Shown: piece after piece, positions 4,771 through 12,993 of the stretch
Numbering within the stretch: position 1 is the first letter of the stretch
Layout: every line of letters starts with the position of its first letter
Source: Pedobacter arcticus A12
GTDB taxonomy: Bacteria; Bacteroidota; Bacteroidia; Sphingobacteriales; Sphingobacteriaceae
Length of the DNA: 64,000 bases
Direction: 5' to 3'
Assembly (NCBI RefSeq): GCF_000302595.1
Contig: NZ_JH947125.1
Location: forward strand, 260,884-324,883
The notes under the pieces: model-generated
What the model saw: the letters and a program-made list of their open reading frames with translations, nothing else
Database searches by the model: none
What the model was told of the DNA's origin: nothing
Translations under genes and position numbers: made by a program

Positions 4771-6117
4771 TTATTTAACCTTTCTGCTTTTGGTATTAAT
4801 CTGGAGTATAACGTTGTCTAGCTCGGTAGCGGATATTTCGAGCATTTGATTAAGGTCTGCTAATTCATCTAAAGTGTGGGTATGTTTGATCAAACTTACC
4901 AAAGCTAGGATGTTAGCTAATGGTTTGCGTACCAAGTGTGATTGTTCCCAGGCTATTTCATTCAGCAACTTGTTTTGTTCAACTATTTTATCAATGTAGT
5001 CTTTGTCTTTGGTTATGTTTTTTATGTTGTCTGAAAGGCCTATGATTTTACCATCATTGTCTTGTACGGGAAACATTGAAAACCTCCACCATGATTTGTC
5101 GAGATGTTTTTCAACCACAATTGTTTTTCCAGACAAAACGTCTTGATAATGTTGACTAAATTCTCGCCTTAATTCTGGAACAACATAGTCAATTGCACAA
5201 TCTCCAATTTTAGACTCTTTTCCAGAAATTTCGAGAGAAACGTCTTTAGCAAAGTTATTTGAAAACAGAATTTTTAGTTCGCAATCTAAAAAAGTTAAAG
5301 CTTCTTCAGTACTATTATGCAAAGCTTCTAACATCAGTTGATGTTGTAATAGAAGCGCTTCAGATTTTTTCTTTTTAGTAATATCTACGGTTGTAAATGT
5401 TACGCCAATTATTTCGTTTTCTTGATTATATGCTGGATGGTAGCCTGTCTTAAGCCATACCTCTTTATTGGGAAATTTGCTAAGTTTCTCTAGTCTTATA
5501 GTTTCGCCTTTAAAAGCTTTTTGACTGTTCTGATAAAAAGCTTCGCGATCTAGAATGTAATCCCAAATGCTACTGTTTATAACTAGAGATTTGTTTAAGT
5601 TTAATTCTGACACATAATTTGCCCAATGATTAAAGGACATAATTTTGTAATCTGGAGATATAAGAACATTACTTTGGGTAGTACTATTTAAAATAGCCTG
5701 AAGTTTGATATTTGTATTCGTTAATTCGTCACGAGTGCGTTCTTCCGGTGTAACATCAATTCCAATCCAAAGAATACCTAACGTTTTATCGTTTTCCTTT
5801 AGTACCGAAAGTTCCCAGCTTGTCCAAGTAGAAAACTGCTCTCCCTGTAAAGGTTTTCTGATTTTCAACTCGTAAAGTTCGTCAGGGTTTTCTAAAAGCC
5901 TTTGTATAGTTTCATTACAAGTTTCGTGGTCATCAGCGTGAATGCCGATGCGAAATTGTTTCCCAATAAAATCATTTGTGATAAAACCAAAGCGATTTAA
6001 AAAAGCATTGTTTGTATAAACATACTTTTCGTCAAAATCCGTAATAATTATCGAATGTCTTTTTGAATTTTGTAAGTATAAGGGAATTAGGGGCTTAAAA
6101 TCGATTTTAGTATTCAT
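4771..6117 (-). CDS. Multi-PAS sensor protein with DHp-like tail but no ATPase domain
   Basis: A 448-residue soluble protein with three PAS domains in a row (about residues 15-130, 135-255 and 260-375). A final ~65-residue helical segment resembles a histidine-kinase dimerisation region: EQSHLVRKPLANILAL has a His-box-like SHLVRKPL. The reading frame then ends in SRKVK with no HATPase_c domain, and the next ~130 downstream bases hold none either. It therefore looks like a PAS sensor or kinase-like scaffold that cannot autophosphorylate. Similar short forms occur in Bacteroidota. No response regulator is adjacent. Confidence 0.8.
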   Translation of the reverse strand: MNTKIDFKPLIPLYLQNSKRHSIIITDFDEKYVYTNNAFLNRFGFITNDFIGKQFRIGIHADDHETCNETIQRLLENPDELYELKIRKPLQGEQFSTWTSWELSVLKENDKTLGILWIGIDVTPEERTRDELTNTNIKLQAILNSTTQSNVLISPDYKIMSFNHWANYVSELNLNKSLVINSSIWDYILDREAFYQNSQKAFKGETIRLEKLSKFPNKEVWLKTGYHPAYNQENEIIGVTFTTVDITKKKKSEALLLQHQLMLEALHNSTEEALTFLDCELKILFSNNFAKDVSLEISGKESKIGDCAIDYVVPELRREFSQHYQDVLSGKTIVVEKHLDKSWWRFSMFPVQDNDGKIIGLSDNIKNITKDKDYIDKIVEQNKLLNEIAWEQSHLVRKPLANILALVSLIKHTHTLDELADLNQMLEISATELDNVILQINTKSRKVK

Positions 6118-6279: not shown

Positions 6280-6555
6280 TTATTTTTTAATCCTTTCAAT
6301 ATCAATATAGGCATTAATTTTAAAAACATTCAACCCGTTTTCTTCTGCGTCGATAAAAGAAATAATTTCCGCCCTTGTTTCCTTTAACTCTTGAATTTTT
6401 AGCAAAGATTCTTGATTTTTCTTTCCCGTTCTTTCTTCAGTACTAAAGCTTTTTACATCATGAAATTTTATTTTTTCTTCAATAAGAGTCAACAGAATTT
6501 CTTTGGTATCTTTTGAATTAAAAGTACCTTCAATGAGTTTGAATTTCTCTTCCAT
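6280..6555 (-). CDS. Small hypothetical protein
   Basis: A 91-residue charged, soluble protein without recognised motifs. Sequence such as LIEGTFNSKDTKEILLTLIEEKIKFHD followed by a coiled Lys/Glu-rich middle (about residues 40-65) suggests a helical, possibly coiled-coil fold. An ATG start is followed by a clean frame. It stands alone between the PAS gene and lysR, is transcribed away from lysR and shares the intergenic space that holds the lysR control motif. I do not recognise its function; Bacteroidota genomes carry many such small conserved proteins. Confidence 0.6.
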   Translation of the reverse strand: MEEKFKLIEGTFNSKDTKEILLTLIEEKIKFHDVKSFSTEERTGKKNQESLLKIQELKETRAEIISFIDAEENGLNVFKINAYIDIERIKK

Positions 6556-6628
6556 ATTTTTTTGATAAACGTTTTATAAAGTTCGGGTTTAAACTGCCAC
6601 ACAAAGGTGGACTTTCTAACTTATTAGT

Positions 6629-6659
6629 TTTTATTTATGTTTGTAATGCTAAGCATAAA
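6629..6659 (+). promoter_or_regulatory. Predicted LysR operator/promoter upstream of lysR
   Basis: A 31-nt block containing TTTTATTTATGTTTGT, then ATGCTA, then ATAAA. It matches the block at 11570-11600 in front of dabB at 28 of 31 positions. Inside it ATGCTAAGCAT (6646-6656) is a perfect 11-nt palindrome, and TTTATG...CATAAA are inverted half sites 14 bases apart. TATGTTTG (6637-6644) fits the Bacteroidota -7 promoter consensus TAnnTTTG. The block ends 8 bases before the lysR start, a placement that would suit autoregulation. Confidence 0.65.
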
Positions 6660-6667
6660 ATATATTT

Positions 6668-7591
6668 ATGAACTACACGCTCAATCAGTTACAGATTTTC
6701 TTAAAAATTGCGCAGACACAAAGCGTAACGAAAGCTGCCGAAGAGTTGCATTTAACGCAACCTGCTGTTTCGATACAGTTACGCAACCTGCAATTGCAGT
6801 TTGATATTCCCTTAACTGAAGTAGTTGGGCGCAAAATTTACATTACTGATTTTGGAAAAGAATTAGCCGAAGCAGCAGAGAACATTCTTAACCAAGTGCA
6901 TGCAATCAATTATAAAACGCATGCTTTTAAAGGTCAACTCACTGGTAAACTTAAAATTTCTGTGGTTTCAACTGGGCAGTATGTAATGCCTTATTTTATT
7001 ACTGATTTTGTGGGGCAACATGCAAACGTGGAACTCCAGATTGATGTAACCAACAAAAAAGGGGTACTAAGCAGTTTAGAGAATAACGAAGTTGATTTTG
7101 CTTTAGTGTCGGTTTTACCAACTACATTAAACATAGAAAAACTGGATCTGTTACAGAACAAACTTTACTTGGTTGGCGGTTCAAGAAACGAATATAAAGA
7201 AGCGGTTTATGATAAAAGTTTGTTAAATAACTTGCCTATTATTTTTAGAGAGAAAGGCTCTGGAACTCGACAGACTATGCAAGATTTTATGGATAAAAAT
7301 AATTTATCTGTCCTTAAGAAAATGGAGCTAACCTCAAACGAGGCAGTTAAGCAAGCGGTTATTGCCGGTATGGGTTATTCTATTATGCCATTGATTGGTA
7401 TTAAAAATGAACTTAATAATAAAGACGTACAAATTATACCGGTAACGGGTTTGCCAATCTCTTCAACTTGGAGTTTGATTTGGTTAAAAGGTAAAAACCA
7501 TTCGCCCGTTGCGGCGCATTTTCTGAAGTACTTAAAGCAGGAAAAGGATAATATTGTTGCAGATAAATTCCACTGGTCGCAAAGCTATTAA
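6668..7591 (+). CDS. LysR-family regulator, likely controlling the dab inorganic-carbon genes
   Basis: A 307-residue LysR-type regulator. The N-terminal winged helix-turn-helix (residues 1-60) reads YTLNQLQIFLKIAQTQSVTK and LHLTQPAVSIQLRNLQ. The remainder is a periplasmic-binding-like effector domain with the segment FREKGSGTRQTMQDF, also typical of CbbR/CmpR-type regulators of carbon fixation or bicarbonate uptake. It converges on dabA with only 58 bases between the stops. A motif in its own promoter is repeated upstream of dabB. Both facts support dabBA as its target, though the effector is not deducible. Confidence 0.93.
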   Translation: MNYTLNQLQIFLKIAQTQSVTKAAEELHLTQPAVSIQLRNLQLQFDIPLTEVVGRKIYITDFGKELAEAAENILNQVHAINYKTHAFKGQLTGKLKISVVSTGQYVMPYFITDFVGQHANVELQIDVTNKKGVLSSLENNEVDFALVSVLPTTLNIEKLDLLQNKLYLVGGSRNEYKEAVYDKSLLNNLPIIFREKGSGTRQTMQDFMDKNNLSVLKKMELTSNEAVKQAVIAGMGYSIMPLIGIKNELNNKDVQIIPVTGLPISSTWSLIWLKGKNHSPVAAHFLKYLKQEKDNIVADKFHWSQSY

Positions 7592-7605
7592 CAGTTTTGA
7601 TAAAC

Positions 7606-7635
7606 AGAGAAACCATCTTATCTGGTGATTTCTCT
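7606..7635. terminator. Hairpin between convergent lysR and dabA
   Basis: AGAGAAA-CCA pairs with TGGTGATTTCTCT across an 8-base loop and is flanked by AT-rich sequence. It lies between the two convergent stop codons and probably serves as a shared terminator. Confidence 0.6.
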
Positions 7636-7649
7636 ATTTAAAATTATTG

Positions 7650-10013
7650 TTATTTAACTTTTTCTTGTACTAAGTTATCTGTATTTGCTGTTGCAGAGCA
7701 ACTGTCTTTTGCAGAAACATACATTTTTGGTTTTGCATCTTTTAATGGATCTATTACCATTAAATAAATCCACTCGTTAGCAATTAAGCTTTGAAGTTTC
7801 GGATTCTTATCTAAAATGGCACTTATTCTTTCTAAAGGCGCTTCAATTATTACCGATAACCTGAGTGGTTGATGGTGCATCTTGTTATCAGCAGCTTTAA
7901 CAGATTGCAAAGGAATTCCGATTTTTAAATCGCCTCCGTTTCCTTGCACTACGCCAAAATGGCCAGTTACATTGTGTGTGGTTTTTGAGCCTCCGCCAAA
8001 TCTATCAGTATCAACTGTTGAAAAGTAATAGTGGTTATTAATCCATTGCGTAACCGTCATTGGTCCTTGCATAATGGCTTCTAAAAGATTTCCACTGTCA
8101 TCTGTTTTCCAGTCGTACGACTGTAGAAAACATCGACTTTCTAAATCTACATTTTTAGATAAACTCCGCGGACCAATAATAAAACCGGCGTTTTTAGCTA
8201 AACCCCATTCTGGTCTTGTTTCTGCCCAGTTATTAGCTTTTTTATGTACAAAATCTATTTCTTGCTTAGTTAAACCTCTTCTTTCTTTAATGGTGTTGGA
8301 TTGTACTTTAGCCAAATCAGCTTTTAAGTTCTTGAGTAACTTATGGTGAGATGTAGGTACGTGGCTATCAAATAAAACAATGTCTTCTGTAGTTGTGTTA
8401 TGCTCAGCGCCAATAAAAACGGTGTTTTCGGGAATTACCAAGTCAAAATCTTTTGCCAAAACTTCTCTAACTTCTGGTAGGTTGGCTAAGCTTGCCAGCA
8501 TCCTTGCATTGTTTCTACCTGGACTTGCAGCACAAGCGCCACAATCCAAACTAGAACCAAATGGATTGTTTTTGGAGTGGCTGCCATGACCAGCAAAAAC
8601 TACCAGTGGCGCAAATTTTTGCCAGCCCATTACTGCAAAAGCAGATTTTACAATAGTTACTTTTTCTGCCAAAGGTATTCCAGCTATAGAACTTGGTTCA
8701 TGATGAGCATGCGCAATTTTGGTATGGCAAAAGCTTTCATGATTGGGTGTGTTTTTTTGTTCCGACTTATACAGCTTACCTGGAAAAAGAGACCTCGCAA
8801 CTAAAGAGGCACCATAAATTAATCCCGCACCTTCCACGTAGCCAAAAGCAGAGGGAAGCATGTTTTTTAATCTTCTGAAGAAATAATCTTTAAACTTTTG
8901 GTCAGCAACTATTTTCTTAAAACTTGATATTTCTGCAGCTTTTCCTTCATCGCAATCTTCGGAAATAATGTAAGAAGACGGAACAATTGGCGGGCAAGAT
9001 TTCCGAAGCATTCCCGTACTTAAATCTTTGTAATCTGCTGCTATTCCAAAAAATCCAGCGAAACCAAATGTTTCATAGTTACCCTGCGCTTCAATATGCC
9101 TTCTAATTAATTCTGATCTGGTATCGATACAAAAAACCAATTGTGCATCTGGCACTCCATCGGCTTGTATTACCTCTTCAACCGTAATTTGTTTTTTATC
9201 TAATTTGAGCACCAATTTATCTTGCAGACTTTTCTCCCAAGCTTTTAGCCAAACATATTGTAGCTTAATGGTTTCTAATAATTCTTGGTTGTTTTTAACC
9301 GGAGCAATTATCTGAGCATTGGTTTGTTGCGCAATCCAAAGTCTTACGGCCAAGTATTCCAACAACGAAATCGGATATTTTTGTTGCCATTCGGTTTGGT
9401 TGTCAACTCTGTATTTAATATATCCAGTCCAGCCTGCTAAAGCGGCAATGTGGTATTCAAATATTTGCAGATAATCTTCGGTAGCGAAACCGCTAATCGC
9501 TTTTGTTAATGCTTCACTGGCTGATGCAGGGATTTCATCTATTGATTTAATGTGGATTTGCTTATCGTATTTAGCTAATTTCCGCCAAGCCTGATAAAAG
9601 CCTTCTGTTCTGTTTGGCATTTCCCATTCGGTAGTTCCCTCATCTAAAAATGCTGTCAGCCATTTTACCATCATCGCATCTAAATGATGGTTGGGGTTTT
9701 CTTCTGCACTTGGCTTATAAGTTTCCAATTCTTTTAGGTAAAAAGCAGGCGACTCCATGAACCCGTAGGTCATCAGTATTTCGGTTAATACTGCCTCGTC
9801 TATTTCGCCGGTATCCCAAGCTTGTTGGTAAGCAGAAGCTTCTGGAAATAACGAGCCTCCAAAATATTTAGTTGCACTCTGGGTAGCATTTAAAAAAGAT
9901 TCGTTTTCGTATCCTGATAAAGGATTTGAAGTTACAAAAGCATATAAAGGGAACGTTTTACCAACCACGTTAGCTGCTTTTTCAATAAGTTTGTTCAAAT
10001 TTTGCGTGTTCAT
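7650..10013 (-). CDS. dabA: DabA, carbonic-anhydrase-like subunit of the DAB inorganic carbon pump (DUF2309)
   Basis: A 787-residue soluble protein of the UPF0753/DUF2309 family. DabA binds zinc like a beta-carbonic anhydrase and works with the membrane protein DabB to convert CO2 to bicarbonate unidirectionally. The expected zinc/active-site set is visible: C295 and D297 (FCIDTRSE), H476 (FAGHGSHSKNNPF) and C491 (DCGACAASPGRNNAR), with the family spacing of 15 between H and the second C. It starts 3 bases after dabB, so the two form one operon. No carboxysome or RuBisCO genes are nearby, so in this probable heterotroph the pump would feed bicarbonate to carboxylases of central metabolism. 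Confidence 0.93.
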   Translation of the reverse strand: MNTQNLNKLIEKAANVVGKTFPLYAFVTSNPLSGYENESFLNATQSATKYFGGSLFPEASAYQQAWDTGEIDEAVLTEILMTYGFMESPAFYLKELETYKPSAEENPNHHLDAMMVKWLTAFLDEGTTEWEMPNRTEGFYQAWRKLAKYDKQIHIKSIDEIPASASEALTKAISGFATEDYLQIFEYHIAALAGWTGYIKYRVDNQTEWQQKYPISLLEYLAVRLWIAQQTNAQIIAPVKNNQELLETIKLQYVWLKAWEKSLQDKLVLKLDKKQITVEEVIQADGVPDAQLVFCIDTRSELIRRHIEAQGNYETFGFAGFFGIAADYKDLSTGMLRKSCPPIVPSSYIISEDCDEGKAAEISSFKKIVADQKFKDYFFRRLKNMLPSAFGYVEGAGLIYGASLVARSLFPGKLYKSEQKNTPNHESFCHTKIAHAHHEPSSIAGIPLAEKVTIVKSAFAVMGWQKFAPLVVFAGHGSHSKNNPFGSSLDCGACAASPGRNNARMLASLANLPEVREVLAKDFDLVIPENTVFIGAEHNTTTEDIVLFDSHVPTSHHKLLKNLKADLAKVQSNTIKERRGLTKQEIDFVHKKANNWAETRPEWGLAKNAGFIIGPRSLSKNVDLESRCFLQSYDWKTDDSGNLLEAIMQGPMTVTQWINNHYYFSTVDTDRFGGGSKTTHNVTGHFGVVQGNGGDLKIGIPLQSVKAADNKMHHQPLRLSVIIEAPLERISAILDKNPKLQSLIANEWIYLMVIDPLKDAKPKMYVSAKDSCSATANTDNLVQEKVK

Positions 10014-10016
10014 ATT

Positions 10017-11519
10017 TTATTTGCTTTTAAACATTAATACAGTTTTGTGGTGAGGTTGCGAGTCGTTCATTAGCTTAACATAAAGCCAAGAGAAATTTCG
10101 AAAAACACCCAGTTTCATGATGAAGAAACCGATTAAGAAAATAATCCCGAATATAATTTGTGTGAGACTTAATGCTAGCGGAATATCAACCATTGGCATA
10201 GAGCTCATTAAAACCGTTACACCTTGGTATATTAAAGCGTATAAACCTATTCCTACAAAAAACAGTAAGGGCGGTACAAAAGCTTTTTGAAAAATACTTA
10301 GGTTTTGTTGTTTAACGATGTTGTAAGTAATTTGACCAACCGTAATGGCTACAATAAGCGTTAAAAATATCCCGCTGTTCATCTCGGTGCCTTTACCCGT
10401 AAGGGTTGCAAAAAGCAAGGCTCCAACTAATCCGTAGATGAGTACAACTATTGCCTGTAGCGGTTTAATGATGATTTTCTCTTTGTTTTCTGGGATGGTT
10501 TGTTTTACGCTTTCGCCGGATGAAAGAAATAAATAAGCTTTATAAAAGCCGTGTAAGATAAGGTGAACAACAGCAGCGTTAAAAAATCCTAAGCCGCATT
10601 GCATAATCATAAAACCCATTTGTGCAATGGTAGAGCAACCGAGTTTTTGTTTTACGTTGGGCTGTATTAGTTTGGAAAATTGTGCAATAATTGCGGTTAA
10701 TCCGCCGATTATTAACAGAATGGCAAAGGTGTTTGAAACAAATATTAAAGTAGAGAATAGTGTCAGTAAAATACCGGCGCCGTTTACAAAGCCAGCATGC
10801 ATTAATGCAGAAGCTGGAGTTGGTGCCGTCATCGCAGAAAGTAGCCATCTGTGAAAAGGGTAAATTGCCGACTGGATAATTGCTGCAACAATAATTAATA
10901 AAGCGGCGGTGATTAAGGTAACCTGCGAAAGATTTTGAAGGTTTGCAATAATGCCTTCTAACGTAAATTGATTGGTTTGTATGGCGAGTACGGTGACGCC
11001 AGCAGTTAAAAATAAAGTGCCGAGCAAAAAGTATTTTTGGGCAAATTTTTTCGCTTCCCTTGCTTCGCCCCAATGGCTATTTACACCTATCAAATTAGCC
11101 ATAAAAACACCCATCGCAAACCATGATAATAGCAGCAATGCAACATGGTTACTTGCAATAAATAACATCACCGAAAGGGTAAAACCTAGGCTTAAGCAGA
11201 TAAACTTTTTCTGATATTTAAAACCCGCTAGATAATAAATGCTGTAAGTGCTTAAGATAGCACTGAAGAATGTTACGGTTGTCCAGATTAATAATGTAAA
11301 ACCATTGATGCGGATTATATTTCCCCAGTTCCATGTTTGGCTGTTGCTAAAACTGCTAACTAATAAAATTGCGCTTCCTAAAAAAAATAACCATAAAAAG
11401 ATGTTTATGGCATTTGCAAAACTGGAAACTGCCTGTAGCTTTTCATCAAGTAAACTTGTGGGAGAGCCGTTTAAGGGTGATCCAGAAGAAATAATGCGAG
11501 TGTCTGTATTTATTTTCAT
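10017..11519 (-). CDS. dabB: DabB, proton-conducting membrane subunit of the DAB inorganic carbon pump
   Basis: A 500-residue membrane protein with about 13 hydrophobic segments, homologous to the antiporter-like subunits of complex I (NuoL/MrpA family, PF00361). The signature PFHRWLLSAMTAPTPASALM followed by HAGFVNGAGILLTLFS is diagnostic of this group. In the DAB system this subunit couples cation flow to DabA activity. No other nuo or mrp genes are present, and dabA follows after 3 bases, which supports dabB over a complex I subunit. The start codon is 51 bases from the predicted LysR-controlled motif at 11570-11600. Confidence 0.92.
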   Translation of the reverse strand: MKINTDTRIISSGSPLNGSPTSLLDEKLQAVSSFANAINIFLWLFFLGSAILLVSSFSNSQTWNWGNIIRINGFTLLIWTTVTFFSAILSTYSIYYLAGFKYQKKFICLSLGFTLSVMLFIASNHVALLLLSWFAMGVFMANLIGVNSHWGEAREAKKFAQKYFLLGTLFLTAGVTVLAIQTNQFTLEGIIANLQNLSQVTLITAALLIIVAAIIQSAIYPFHRWLLSAMTAPTPASALMHAGFVNGAGILLTLFSTLIFVSNTFAILLIIGGLTAIIAQFSKLIQPNVKQKLGCSTIAQMGFMIMQCGLGFFNAAVVHLILHGFYKAYLFLSSGESVKQTIPENKEKIIIKPLQAIVVLIYGLVGALLFATLTGKGTEMNSGIFLTLIVAITVGQITYNIVKQQNLSIFQKAFVPPLLFFVGIGLYALIYQGVTVLMSSMPMVDIPLALSLTQIIFGIIFLIGFFIMKLGVFRNFSWLYVKLMNDSQPHHKTVLMFKSK

Positions 11520-11562
11520 ATCGTTGGATTTTTTTGACTCCGCAAATCTGAAAAAACAAACA

Positions 11563-11600
11563 CATAAATTTTTATTTATGTTTGTTATGCTATGTATAAA
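11563..11600 (-). promoter_or_regulatory. Predicted LysR operator upstream of dabBA
   Basis: Bases 11570-11600 repeat the 31-nt block found before lysR (28 of 31 identical; similarity continues as an AT-rich TATATTT(T)ATG stretch). Bases 11563-11580 add the palindrome CATAAAT-TTTT-ATTTATG. The block lies 51-81 bases upstream of the dabB start, an activator-like position. It is in the opposite orientation to transcription compared with the lysR copy. Confidence 0.65.
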
Positions 11601-11715
11601 TATATTTTATGGTTTAGCTTTCGTTAATCCTAAAAAATTACCCTTTGTTTTTAAAGGTTAATGGGAGTAGTCACCGCCAGTGTTAGGAAGAAAGTTAAAG
11701 AGAGATTTTTTAACA

Positions 11716-12993
11716 CTAATAGCCATACTTATTTTTCCAAAGCTCTTTTAAATGCGCTCTGGTTTTTTGTTCGGCTGGGTTTGGTTGAGGGTCGTAAAGC
11801 TTGGTGCCGCTTAATTTTTCGGGAAGGAATTCCTGCTCGGCAAAGTTGTTTTCAAAGGAATGGGCGTATTTATAGTCTTTGCCGTAATCCATATTCTTCA
11901 TCATTTTGGTTGGGGCATTACGCAGATGTAAAGGCACTGGTAAATCTCCGGTTTGCTTCACCAAGGCTTGTGCTTTGCCAATCGCTTCATAAGATGCATT
12001 GCTTTTTGCAGACGAAGCCATATAAGTAACGGCCTGCGAAAGAATAATCCGAGACTCGGGCCAACCAATTACATTTACCGCTTGAAAACAGTTGTTGGCT
12101 AACAAAAGGGCGTTTGGGTTCGCATTCCCGATATCTTCAGAAGCTAAAATTAGCAACCTCCTGGCAATAAACTTAGGGTCTTCGCCACCTTCAATCATCC
12201 GGGCCAACCAATAAACCGCCGCATTAGGGTCGCTTCCTCGGATGGATTTGATAAACGCCGAAATAATATCATAATGTTGTTCGCCCGTTTTATCGTAAAG
12301 CGCCATGTTCTGTTGTACATTCAGCAAAACAAAATCATTGGTAATTACTACTTTTTTGTCATTGGCTGCATTTACTAAGAGCTCAAAAATATTTAAAAGC
12401 TTACGTCCGTCGCCGCCAGATAACCTAACTAATGCTTCGGTTTCTTTCAGTTCTATTTTTTTGTTCTTTAAAACTTCGTCGTTTGTAATCGCATTGTTTA
12501 AAAGACTAATCAATTCCTCCTCGTTCAAATTCTGCAATACATAAACTTGGCATCGCGAAAGCAAAGCCGAGATAACTTCAAAAGATGGGTTTTCTGTAGT
12601 AGCACCAATTAAAATAACCAAGCCTCGTTCCACCGCTCCTAACAAAGAATCTTGTTGCGATTTTGAAAAACGGTGGATCTCATCAATAAATAGTACGGGC
12701 ACAATCCCACCTTTTTTATATTGGGCTGCTTTTTCAATCATCTCTCGCACATCTTTAACGCCCGAATTAATGGCACTTAAAGAAAAGAACGGCCTATCTA
12801 AGCTTTGTGAAATAATAAAAGCTAAAGTGGTTTTTCCTACTCCCGGCGGGCCCCAGAAAATCATCGATGGAATGTGGTTGTTTTCAATGGCTTTTCGTAA
12901 AACAGCACCTTCGCCAACTAAATGTTGTTGCCCCGTGTATTGTGCCAATGAGTTGGGGCGCATACGCTCTGCTAACGGATCTGTTAATGCCAT
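11716..12993 (-). CDS. rarA: Replication-associated recombination protein A (AAA+ ATPase RarA/MgsA)
   Basis: A 425-residue AAA+ ATPase related to the clamp-loader ATPases and to eukaryotic WRNIP1. It acts at stalled replication forks. The N-terminus carries PLAERMRPNSLAQYTGQQHL, the Walker A is GPPGVGKTT, the Walker B is FIDEIHRF and the sensor 1 region is GATTENPSFEV. The C-terminal helical tetramerisation region contains LARMIEGGEDPKFIARRL. Length and domain order match the family. It is followed on the minus strand by the 3' dab promoter region, with no obvious functional link to it. Confidence 0.95.
   Translation of the reverse strand: MALTDPLAERMRPNSLAQYTGQQHLVGEGAVLRKAIENNHIPSMIFWGPPGVGKTTLAFIISQSLDRPFFSLSAINSGVKDVREMIEKAAQYKKGGIVPVLFIDEIHRFSKSQQDSLLGAVERGLVILIGATTENPSFEVISALLSRCQVYVLQNLNEEELISLLNNAITNDEVLKNKKIELKETEALVRLSGGDGRKLLNIFELLVNAANDKKVVITNDFVLLNVQQNMALYDKTGEQHYDIISAFIKSIRGSDPNAAVYWLARMIEGGEDPKFIARRLLILASEDIGNANPNALLLANNCFQAVNVIGWPESRIILSQAVTYMASSAKSNASYEAIGKAQALVKQTGDLPVPLHLRNAPTKMMKNMDYGKDYKYAHSFENNFAEQEFLPEKLSGTKLYDPQPNPAEQKTRAHLKELWKNKYGY

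Follow-up and report, generated by a model that had tools for sequence, protein, structure and literature searches.

Background

DAB pumps are found in autotrophs and heterotrophs alike. Among described LysR-type regulators, the closest systems to the one considered here are cyanobacterial. CcmR (also NdhR) of Synechocystis is reported to repress its own gene along with sbtA and an operon for CO2 uptake of the NdhF type, with 2-oxoglutarate and NADP+ as its co-repressors (PMC3401165), and CmpR is reported to be divergent from the bicarbonate transporter operon that it activates (PMC4390856). For LysR regulators more widely, reports describe a recognition-site/activation-site model with a sliding dimer (PMC12609908, PMC11739112). 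Here we analyze a 64,000-nucleotide (nt) stretch of Pedobacter arcticus A12 (contig NZ_JH947125.1, positions 260,884 to 324,883; referred to below as the window, in which all coordinates are counted), where a lysR gene neighbors dabA and dabB, and a 31-nt block recurs before lysR and before dabB. The best explanation, to which we assign a probability of roughly 0.8, is that the motif is this LysR's operator, placed at its own promoter and at that of dabB, with probable activation of dab and autorepression of lysR. Among the open-access papers listed by our searches, which did not cover the name DAC used in one review (PMC10880623), we recognized no prior description of this site or of dab regulation in Bacteroidota.

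Two copies of the element in the window

An earlier note on this DNA had pointed to the block at 6629-6659 and 11570-11600, and both copies are indeed present on the + strand, agreeing at 28 of 31 bases (three differences). The first ends 8 bases before the lysR ATG (6668), exactly as described. The dabB ATG (11519, minus strand) likewise has a copy of its own nearby, at a gap of 50 bases instead of the 51 given. The genes concerned, and the longer elements to which the analysis extends the blocks, are as follows.

6621..6670, + strand: candidate operator copy 1 (lysR promoter), including 6629-6659
6668..7591, + strand: lysR, encoding a 307-amino-acid LysR-type regulator (PF00126, PF03466; best Protein Data Bank (PDB) relative NdhR 5y2v, E 8e-49)
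7650..10013, - strand: dabA (PF10070, E 6.9e-234)
10017..11519, - strand: dabB, NuoL/NdhF-like (PF00361; NADH dehydrogenase subunit 5/L models)
11562..11611, + strand: candidate operator copy 2 (dabB promoter), including 11570-11600

The LysR protein has the expected domains, an N-terminal HTH_1 (PF00126, E 3e-17) and a C-terminal substrate domain (PF03466, E 1.2e-37). With up to three mismatches allowed, the pattern matches twice in the window, against a mean of 0.00 in 100 shuffles, and just these two near-identical matches occur in the whole genome of 4,228,921 bases. We also built a sequence-only covariance model from 47 lysR sites outside Pedobacter, Pseudopedobacter and Mucilaginibacter records (nearly all from Flavobacteriaceae); its E-values are rough, the calibration having been shortened. 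This model ranks both window copies first in the 4.2-Mb genome (dabB copy, E 3.9e-6; lysR copy, E 5.2e-6), the next match being at 0.57. The shuffles, the whole-genome pattern search, this ranking and the simulated positions described below together rule out chance or an AT-rich background as the source of the match.

Conservation across dab loci and genomes

We fetched 80 dab loci with DabA from named records, Pedobacter, Mucilaginibacter and many Flavobacteriaceae among them. A LysR ortholog (more than 50% identity from residue 1) is present in 55 of the 80; these, together with the window and one further locus (L003), give 57 lysR genes, with copies of the window or L021 loci (L001, L002, L007 and L008) left out of the lysR-site and matrix counts. 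The 110 bases upstream of the 57 genes align without gaps from the ATG outward, with an information content per column of 0.13 bits at -110..-71, 1.19 at -66..-60, 0.24 at -59..-48 and 0.88 at -47..-9. With each gene left out in turn, a matrix of columns -47..-9 gives 54 of the 57 a score of more than 24 bits, the top of 2.2 million simulated positions being 8.3. In many Bacteroidia the element recurs at a distance of 8-9 bases from the start of a lysR ortholog. Within the protein, conservation of 90% or more is reached at a fraction 0.71 of positions in segment 18-45, compared with 0.38 for residues 90-292 (57 orthologs); such a contrast is common among regulators of this family.

Sites scoring above 14 bits are found in 76 of the 80 dab loci, by a matrix trained on the lysR sites of these same loci; L036 and L069 lack the region upstream of dabB, and L075 and L085 are misses. 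Across the dab loci and the window, 93 sites exceed 20 bits: 55 at lysR, 24 near dabB and 14 elsewhere. All 24 dabB copies point away from dabB, and they stand where dabB and lysR share no divergent promoter. Several of the 14 others lie 300-520 bases before dabB, where the small gene described below may intervene. In 22 flavobacterial genomes no lysR is seen at the fetched dab locus, and each of the 22 has one ortholog (E<=1e-60). Some of these dab loci stop close to dabB (L069 inside it), and there a nearby lysR on another contig is possible. Of the 22 orthologs, 18 have a site that scores more than 14 bits at the fixed place (in L230 and L243, one base off).

Among 301 genomes of the family, 86 contain a match to the covariance model at E<=0.1, many of them weak, and 31 encode the LysR (E<=1e-70). 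Of the 23 genomes whose site reaches E<=1e-3, 21 encode the regulator, compared with 31 of 301 overall (p 1e-22); at E<=0.01 the count is 24 of 32, and 7 of the 31 LysR genomes have no site at that level. A score above 18 bits at the fixed place is seen in 26 of 30 family LysR loci. Sixteen of the genomes carry dabA, and the 12 of these with LysR are the same 12 that have a site at E<=0.1, the other four being without one. One of the 12 (G095) has a distant dabA (32% identity), with weak sites at the dab operon and none at lysR.

Extending the scan to the class gave 48 matches in 45 of 395 genomes at E<=0.003. Once G000 and G072 (two matches each) are set aside, 44 matches are left, all of which we inspected, and 40 of these lie 8-9 bases before a LysR ortholog. 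The earlier note had reasoned that wide occurrence of the motif at unrelated promoters would tell against an operator; with 40 of 44 matches at this lysR, and 36 of 44 facing icd, sbtA or dab, that is not the distribution found. In one genome (G506) the class match has no matrix site above 14 bits and none of the query genes nearby. Genome comparison, through the placement of the element, its copies at dabB and its co-occurrence with LysR, strongly supports the note's idea of a putative operator tying LysR to dabBA.

That the site is used by another DNA-binding protein, with LysR merely a neighbor, is very improbable in our judgment. It could accommodate the two of 23 site-bearing genomes (E<=1e-3) in which no LysR is found, but it sits poorly with a class-wide set in which all but four matches directly precede this LysR, and with the presence of LysR in the genome in every one of the 22 cases in which dab shows no lysR nearby.

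Anatomy of the element and its promoters

The half-sites and promoter elements in the two copies are as follows.

11563-11568, CATAAA; 11575-11580, TTTATG; 11595-11600, TATAAA; 11606-11611, TTTATG: half-sites of copy 2
6634..6639, + strand: TTTATG, half-site of dyad I in copy 1, from column conservation
6654..6670, + strand: dyad III, CATAAA-N5-TTTATG (T-N11-A), whose final half-site holds the lysR start codon
6636..6643, + strand: TATGTTTG, predicted lysR -7 box (TAnnTTTG), with the predicted transcription start near 6648
6602..6605, - strand: CAAA on the + strand, the TTTG of a predicted leftward -7 box for a 91-amino-acid open reading frame (ORF), predicted start near 6597
11543..11546, - strand: CAAA on the + strand, the TTTG of the predicted dabB -7 box, predicted start near 11538

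Each element comprises two dyads, CATAAA-N6-TTTATR centered at -37.5 and CATAAA-N5-TTTATG centered at -6 (counted from the lysR ATG), with centers about 31.5 base pairs (bp) apart, or three helical turns; in copy 1, the partner of the dyad I half-site (6622-6627) is degenerate (TATTAG). The candidate operator accordingly extends over about 50 bp with four CATAAA/TTTATG half-sites. The earlier note's idea of an operator is kept in this description, and the 11-bp ATGCTAAGCAT is not its extent: ATGCTAAGCAT (6646-6656) is a perfect odd palindrome, as described, in the lysR copy alone, the dab copy having ATGCTATGTAT instead, and it fails as a conserved core. We rejected it as the main element on its column conservation, since among 37 copies that do not precede lysR (counted after leaving out L168) the G of ATG-N5-CAT is kept in 22 and the C in 28.

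The same 37 copies show which parts of the element are independent of lysR. TTTAT at -3..+1 is kept in 31 of them (0.7% expected), with T at -12 in all 37 and A at 0 in 36, as in a T-N11-A dyad; ATG at 0..2 is present in 26, opening short frames of 1 to 49 codons. Because the last half-site is kept without lysR, the lysR start codon belongs to a half-site, and this overlap would explain the ungapped distance from site to lysR. A generic promoter motif was also considered and rejected: the block includes the predicted lysR -7 box, yet its remainder is kept in copies not preceding lysR.

In Flavobacterium psychrophilum the sigma-A -7 box is reported as TAnnTTTG at -12 to -5 (PMC9723704). On the lysR strand, TAnnTTT[GA] is present in 45 of 55 lysR copies compared with 4 of 29 dabB-only copies (Fisher p 2.3e-9) and 3 of 9 icd-only copies; since the box is largely confined to copies that precede lysR, we assign it to the promoter and not to the operator proper. 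On the other side, to the left of the 39-bp site, CAAA is found at a spacing of 19 bases in 29 of 29 dabB-only copies (one of these rows, L168, being a duplicate whose site is identical to that of L166), 9 of 9 icd-only copies and 52 of 55 lysR copies. The A of this target -7 box is matched (T at -60 in 29/29 and 9/9), and its first T is mostly unmatched. The predicted target promoter has a -7 box and, by eye, no clear -33 element. Measured from the predicted target start (-71, placed by the -7 box rule), the dyads are centered near -34 (-33.5) and -65. In canonical LysR geometry, the recognition site lies near -65 and the activation site near -35 of the target.

Two further explanations of the copies bear on these counts. 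The first, that their likeness only reflects duplication of a promoter at the time of the operon's splitting, with no present role, draws on the close resemblance of the dabB copies in the window and L021 to the lysR copies, including the retained lysR -7 box, which is what a recent split would produce. We consider it highly improbable, given that L021, at 74% DabA identity, retains the same pair and that the majority of the other dabB copies keep the half-sites without the lysR -7 box. The second, that the element acts in RNA as a lysR leader, fits in that part of the element would fall in a short lysR leader; the dabB and icd copies, however, precede the predicted promoter and run in the opposite direction, and so would be outside the target mRNA, making this the least probable of the explanations that we weighed.

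Genes facing the element

Strong sites in genomes without dab face other genes. For the 44 class-wide matches, the facing gene run contains icd in 25 cases (as first or later gene), sbtA without icd in 7 and dab in 4; the remainder are a band-7-like lipoprotein alone (3), the small protein described below (1), a DUF6671-like protein (1), unknown genes (2) and nothing (1). These assignments were made by tblastn or by likeness, with Pfam run on examples only (PF00180 with PF18324, PF05982, PF00484, PF01145 and PF20376). A carbonic anhydrase or a relative lies between site and sbtA in three loci (L306, L317 and L321), and a second site in one genome (G202) faces a carbonic anhydrase alone (L147; PF00484). 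Copies also stand at nine icd genes in whose vicinity no lysR was seen (L153, L156, L158, L159, L173, L174, L210, L216 and L282). In the P. arcticus genome itself we did not find icd of this type, the sole match to the 480-amino-acid icd query being a 33% relative of part of it.

Judged by position, with sites before dabB, sbtA (PF05982) and carbonic anhydrase (PF00484), the targets look like an inorganic-carbon uptake regulon, and we read their products as together raising or using cellular CO2/bicarbonate. NADP-type isocitrate dehydrogenase makes 2-oxoglutarate and NADPH. The icd products would be the same pools that CcmR reads, a parallel that is suggestive only of a regulatory link.

Other genes also lie at copies of the element. 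Band-7 (SPFH) lipoproteins of about 255-270 amino acids stand behind copies, alone or before icd (L145 2302-3069, L296, L299, L307 and L319; Pfam on L145 and L307 only). A DUF6671 protein (Pfam on L321 only) and its look-alikes lie beside sbtA or directly behind the element, at these positions:

L321, 3847-4683
L286, 536-1372
L323, 6374-7243

At L310 2238-2999 a TerC-family membrane protein is encoded between element and icd, and at L160 2458-3417 the gene divergent from one lysR site is Sua5, an enzyme that uses bicarbonate. Directly behind copies at L058 3610-3990 and L169 7926-8306 are ORFs that give a second LysR match, to its first 128 residues only (38%); in L169, icd is on the opposite side of that copy.

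Neighboring genes in the window

Two further genes flank the copies.

6280..6555, - strand: gene for a 91-amino-acid protein, divergent from lysR (no Pfam family matched; beta-alpha-alpha-beta model)
11716-12993, - strand: RarA/MgsA-type ATPase gene, ending beyond the second copy

The 91-amino-acid gene adjoins one for a 448-amino-acid protein with PAS domains (4771-6117, - strand). Members of its small-protein family (80-128 amino acids as called) are divergent from 47 of the 57 lysR genes of the dab set, a count that uses the first-listed divergent ORF and leaves out L087, whose second candidate resembles the small protein. They also occur near several sites in dab-less genomes, and they travel with the element, dab, sbtA and icd. 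An alignment of 42 members gave a confident beta-alpha-alpha-beta structure prediction (predicted local distance difference test score 90.9).

A model of regulation

In our model, one copy of the operator would serve the lysR promoter and the divergent 91-amino-acid gene, and the second would serve dabB. The four half-sites (two dyads) of each copy may hold one LysR tetramer, with the distal dyad (T-N11-A, about -65 from the target start) as recognition site and the proximal dyad (about -34) as activation site. Dyads near -65 and -34, at a promoter with a -7 box but no clear -33 element, suggest that bound LysR probably activates its inorganic-carbon targets, activation being more likely than repression. 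The predicted binding would also cover the lysR -7 box, predicted start and start codon, so that LysR probably represses lysR. The signal that we infer is low CO2/bicarbonate, perhaps sensed through 2-oxoglutarate or NADP+ as in NdhR/CcmR.

Several observations weigh against this reading. The site is missing from the fixed place in 3 of the 57 lysR genes (scores 4.2, -23.1 and -56.7), and a scored site there is lacking in 4 of the 22 flavobacterial orthologs (L228, L235, L237 and L239) and in 4 of the 30 family LysR loci (of these, L255 is unscorable, and in L256 the start is probably misplaced, with a site upstream of it). Fourteen of the 93 strong sites are at neither lysR nor the estimated dabB start. 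The scan model was trained on lysR-proximal sites, which favors finding lysR promoters, and the class-wide scan probably includes families used for that training. Finally, the nearest solved relative, NdhR, is a repressor, which leaves the sign of control uncertain.

This last point sustains the most serious competitor, in which the operator and the LysR are the same and the protein represses dab and its other targets until released at low inorganic carbon. The closest PDB relative is reported to repress its own gene, sbtA and ndhF3 (PMC3401165), but CmpR, also a near relative, is reported to be an activator (PMC4390856), and at the present locus the predicted target -7 box is preceded by the dyads (about -34 and -65), leaving the predicted target start uncovered. 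Dyads centered near -34 and -65 are the usual activator geometry. We therefore regard repression of the targets as unlikely, although far less so than the other alternatives.

Taken with its recurrence in many related bacteria, the element probably represents a conserved control site by which one regulator governs CO2/bicarbonate supply genes. A broader proposal is tentative, and we would put it somewhat short of even odds: that many Bacteroidia, considered heterotrophs, carry a dedicated inorganic-carbon regulon, in which an NdhR/CcmR-like LysR, reading 2-oxoglutarate, NADP+ or CO2, acts through a 50-bp operator enclosing its own start codon and joins dabBA, sbtA, carbonic anhydrase and isocitrate dehydrogenase. 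If so, the regulator would balance carbon supply against carboxylation. The placement of icd under one site with genes for CO2/bicarbonate supply suggests active management of inorganic carbon by these bacteria. The analysis yields a precise candidate operator, down to exact bases, with a named regulator and predicted targets, and it offers a candidate function for LysR genes of this kind.

Comparison with known systems

In a search of the PDB, the three best sequences for this LysR were 5y2v, 5z49 and 5y2w. NdhR/CcmR of Synechocystis (5y2v and 5y2w) is likewise of LysR type and, matching over almost the whole length, is the best relative of solved structure (E 8e-49); it differs in being a repressor from a cyanobacterial autotroph, whereas the regulator described here belongs to Bacteroidota and its predicted targets include dabBA, icd and carbonic anhydrase. 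The likeness described is one of regulator protein and predicted targets. CmpR (5z49) is also a LysR-type regulator of bicarbonate-supply genes in cyanobacteria, but it controls an ABC transporter, the cmp operon, and its reported effectors are ribulose 1,5-bisphosphate and 2-phosphoglycolate. CbbR is a related LysR-type regulator, from which this protein is set apart by its score of 173.4 bits on the NCBIfam equivalog model NF045990 (cut-off 450). With classical LysR operators the element shares a T-N11-A dyad as putative recognition site and, counted from the predicted start, a second dyad around -35 of the target; it differs from them in that the regulator's start codon falls within the putative recognition dyad and in that the dyad centers are about 31.5 bp apart.

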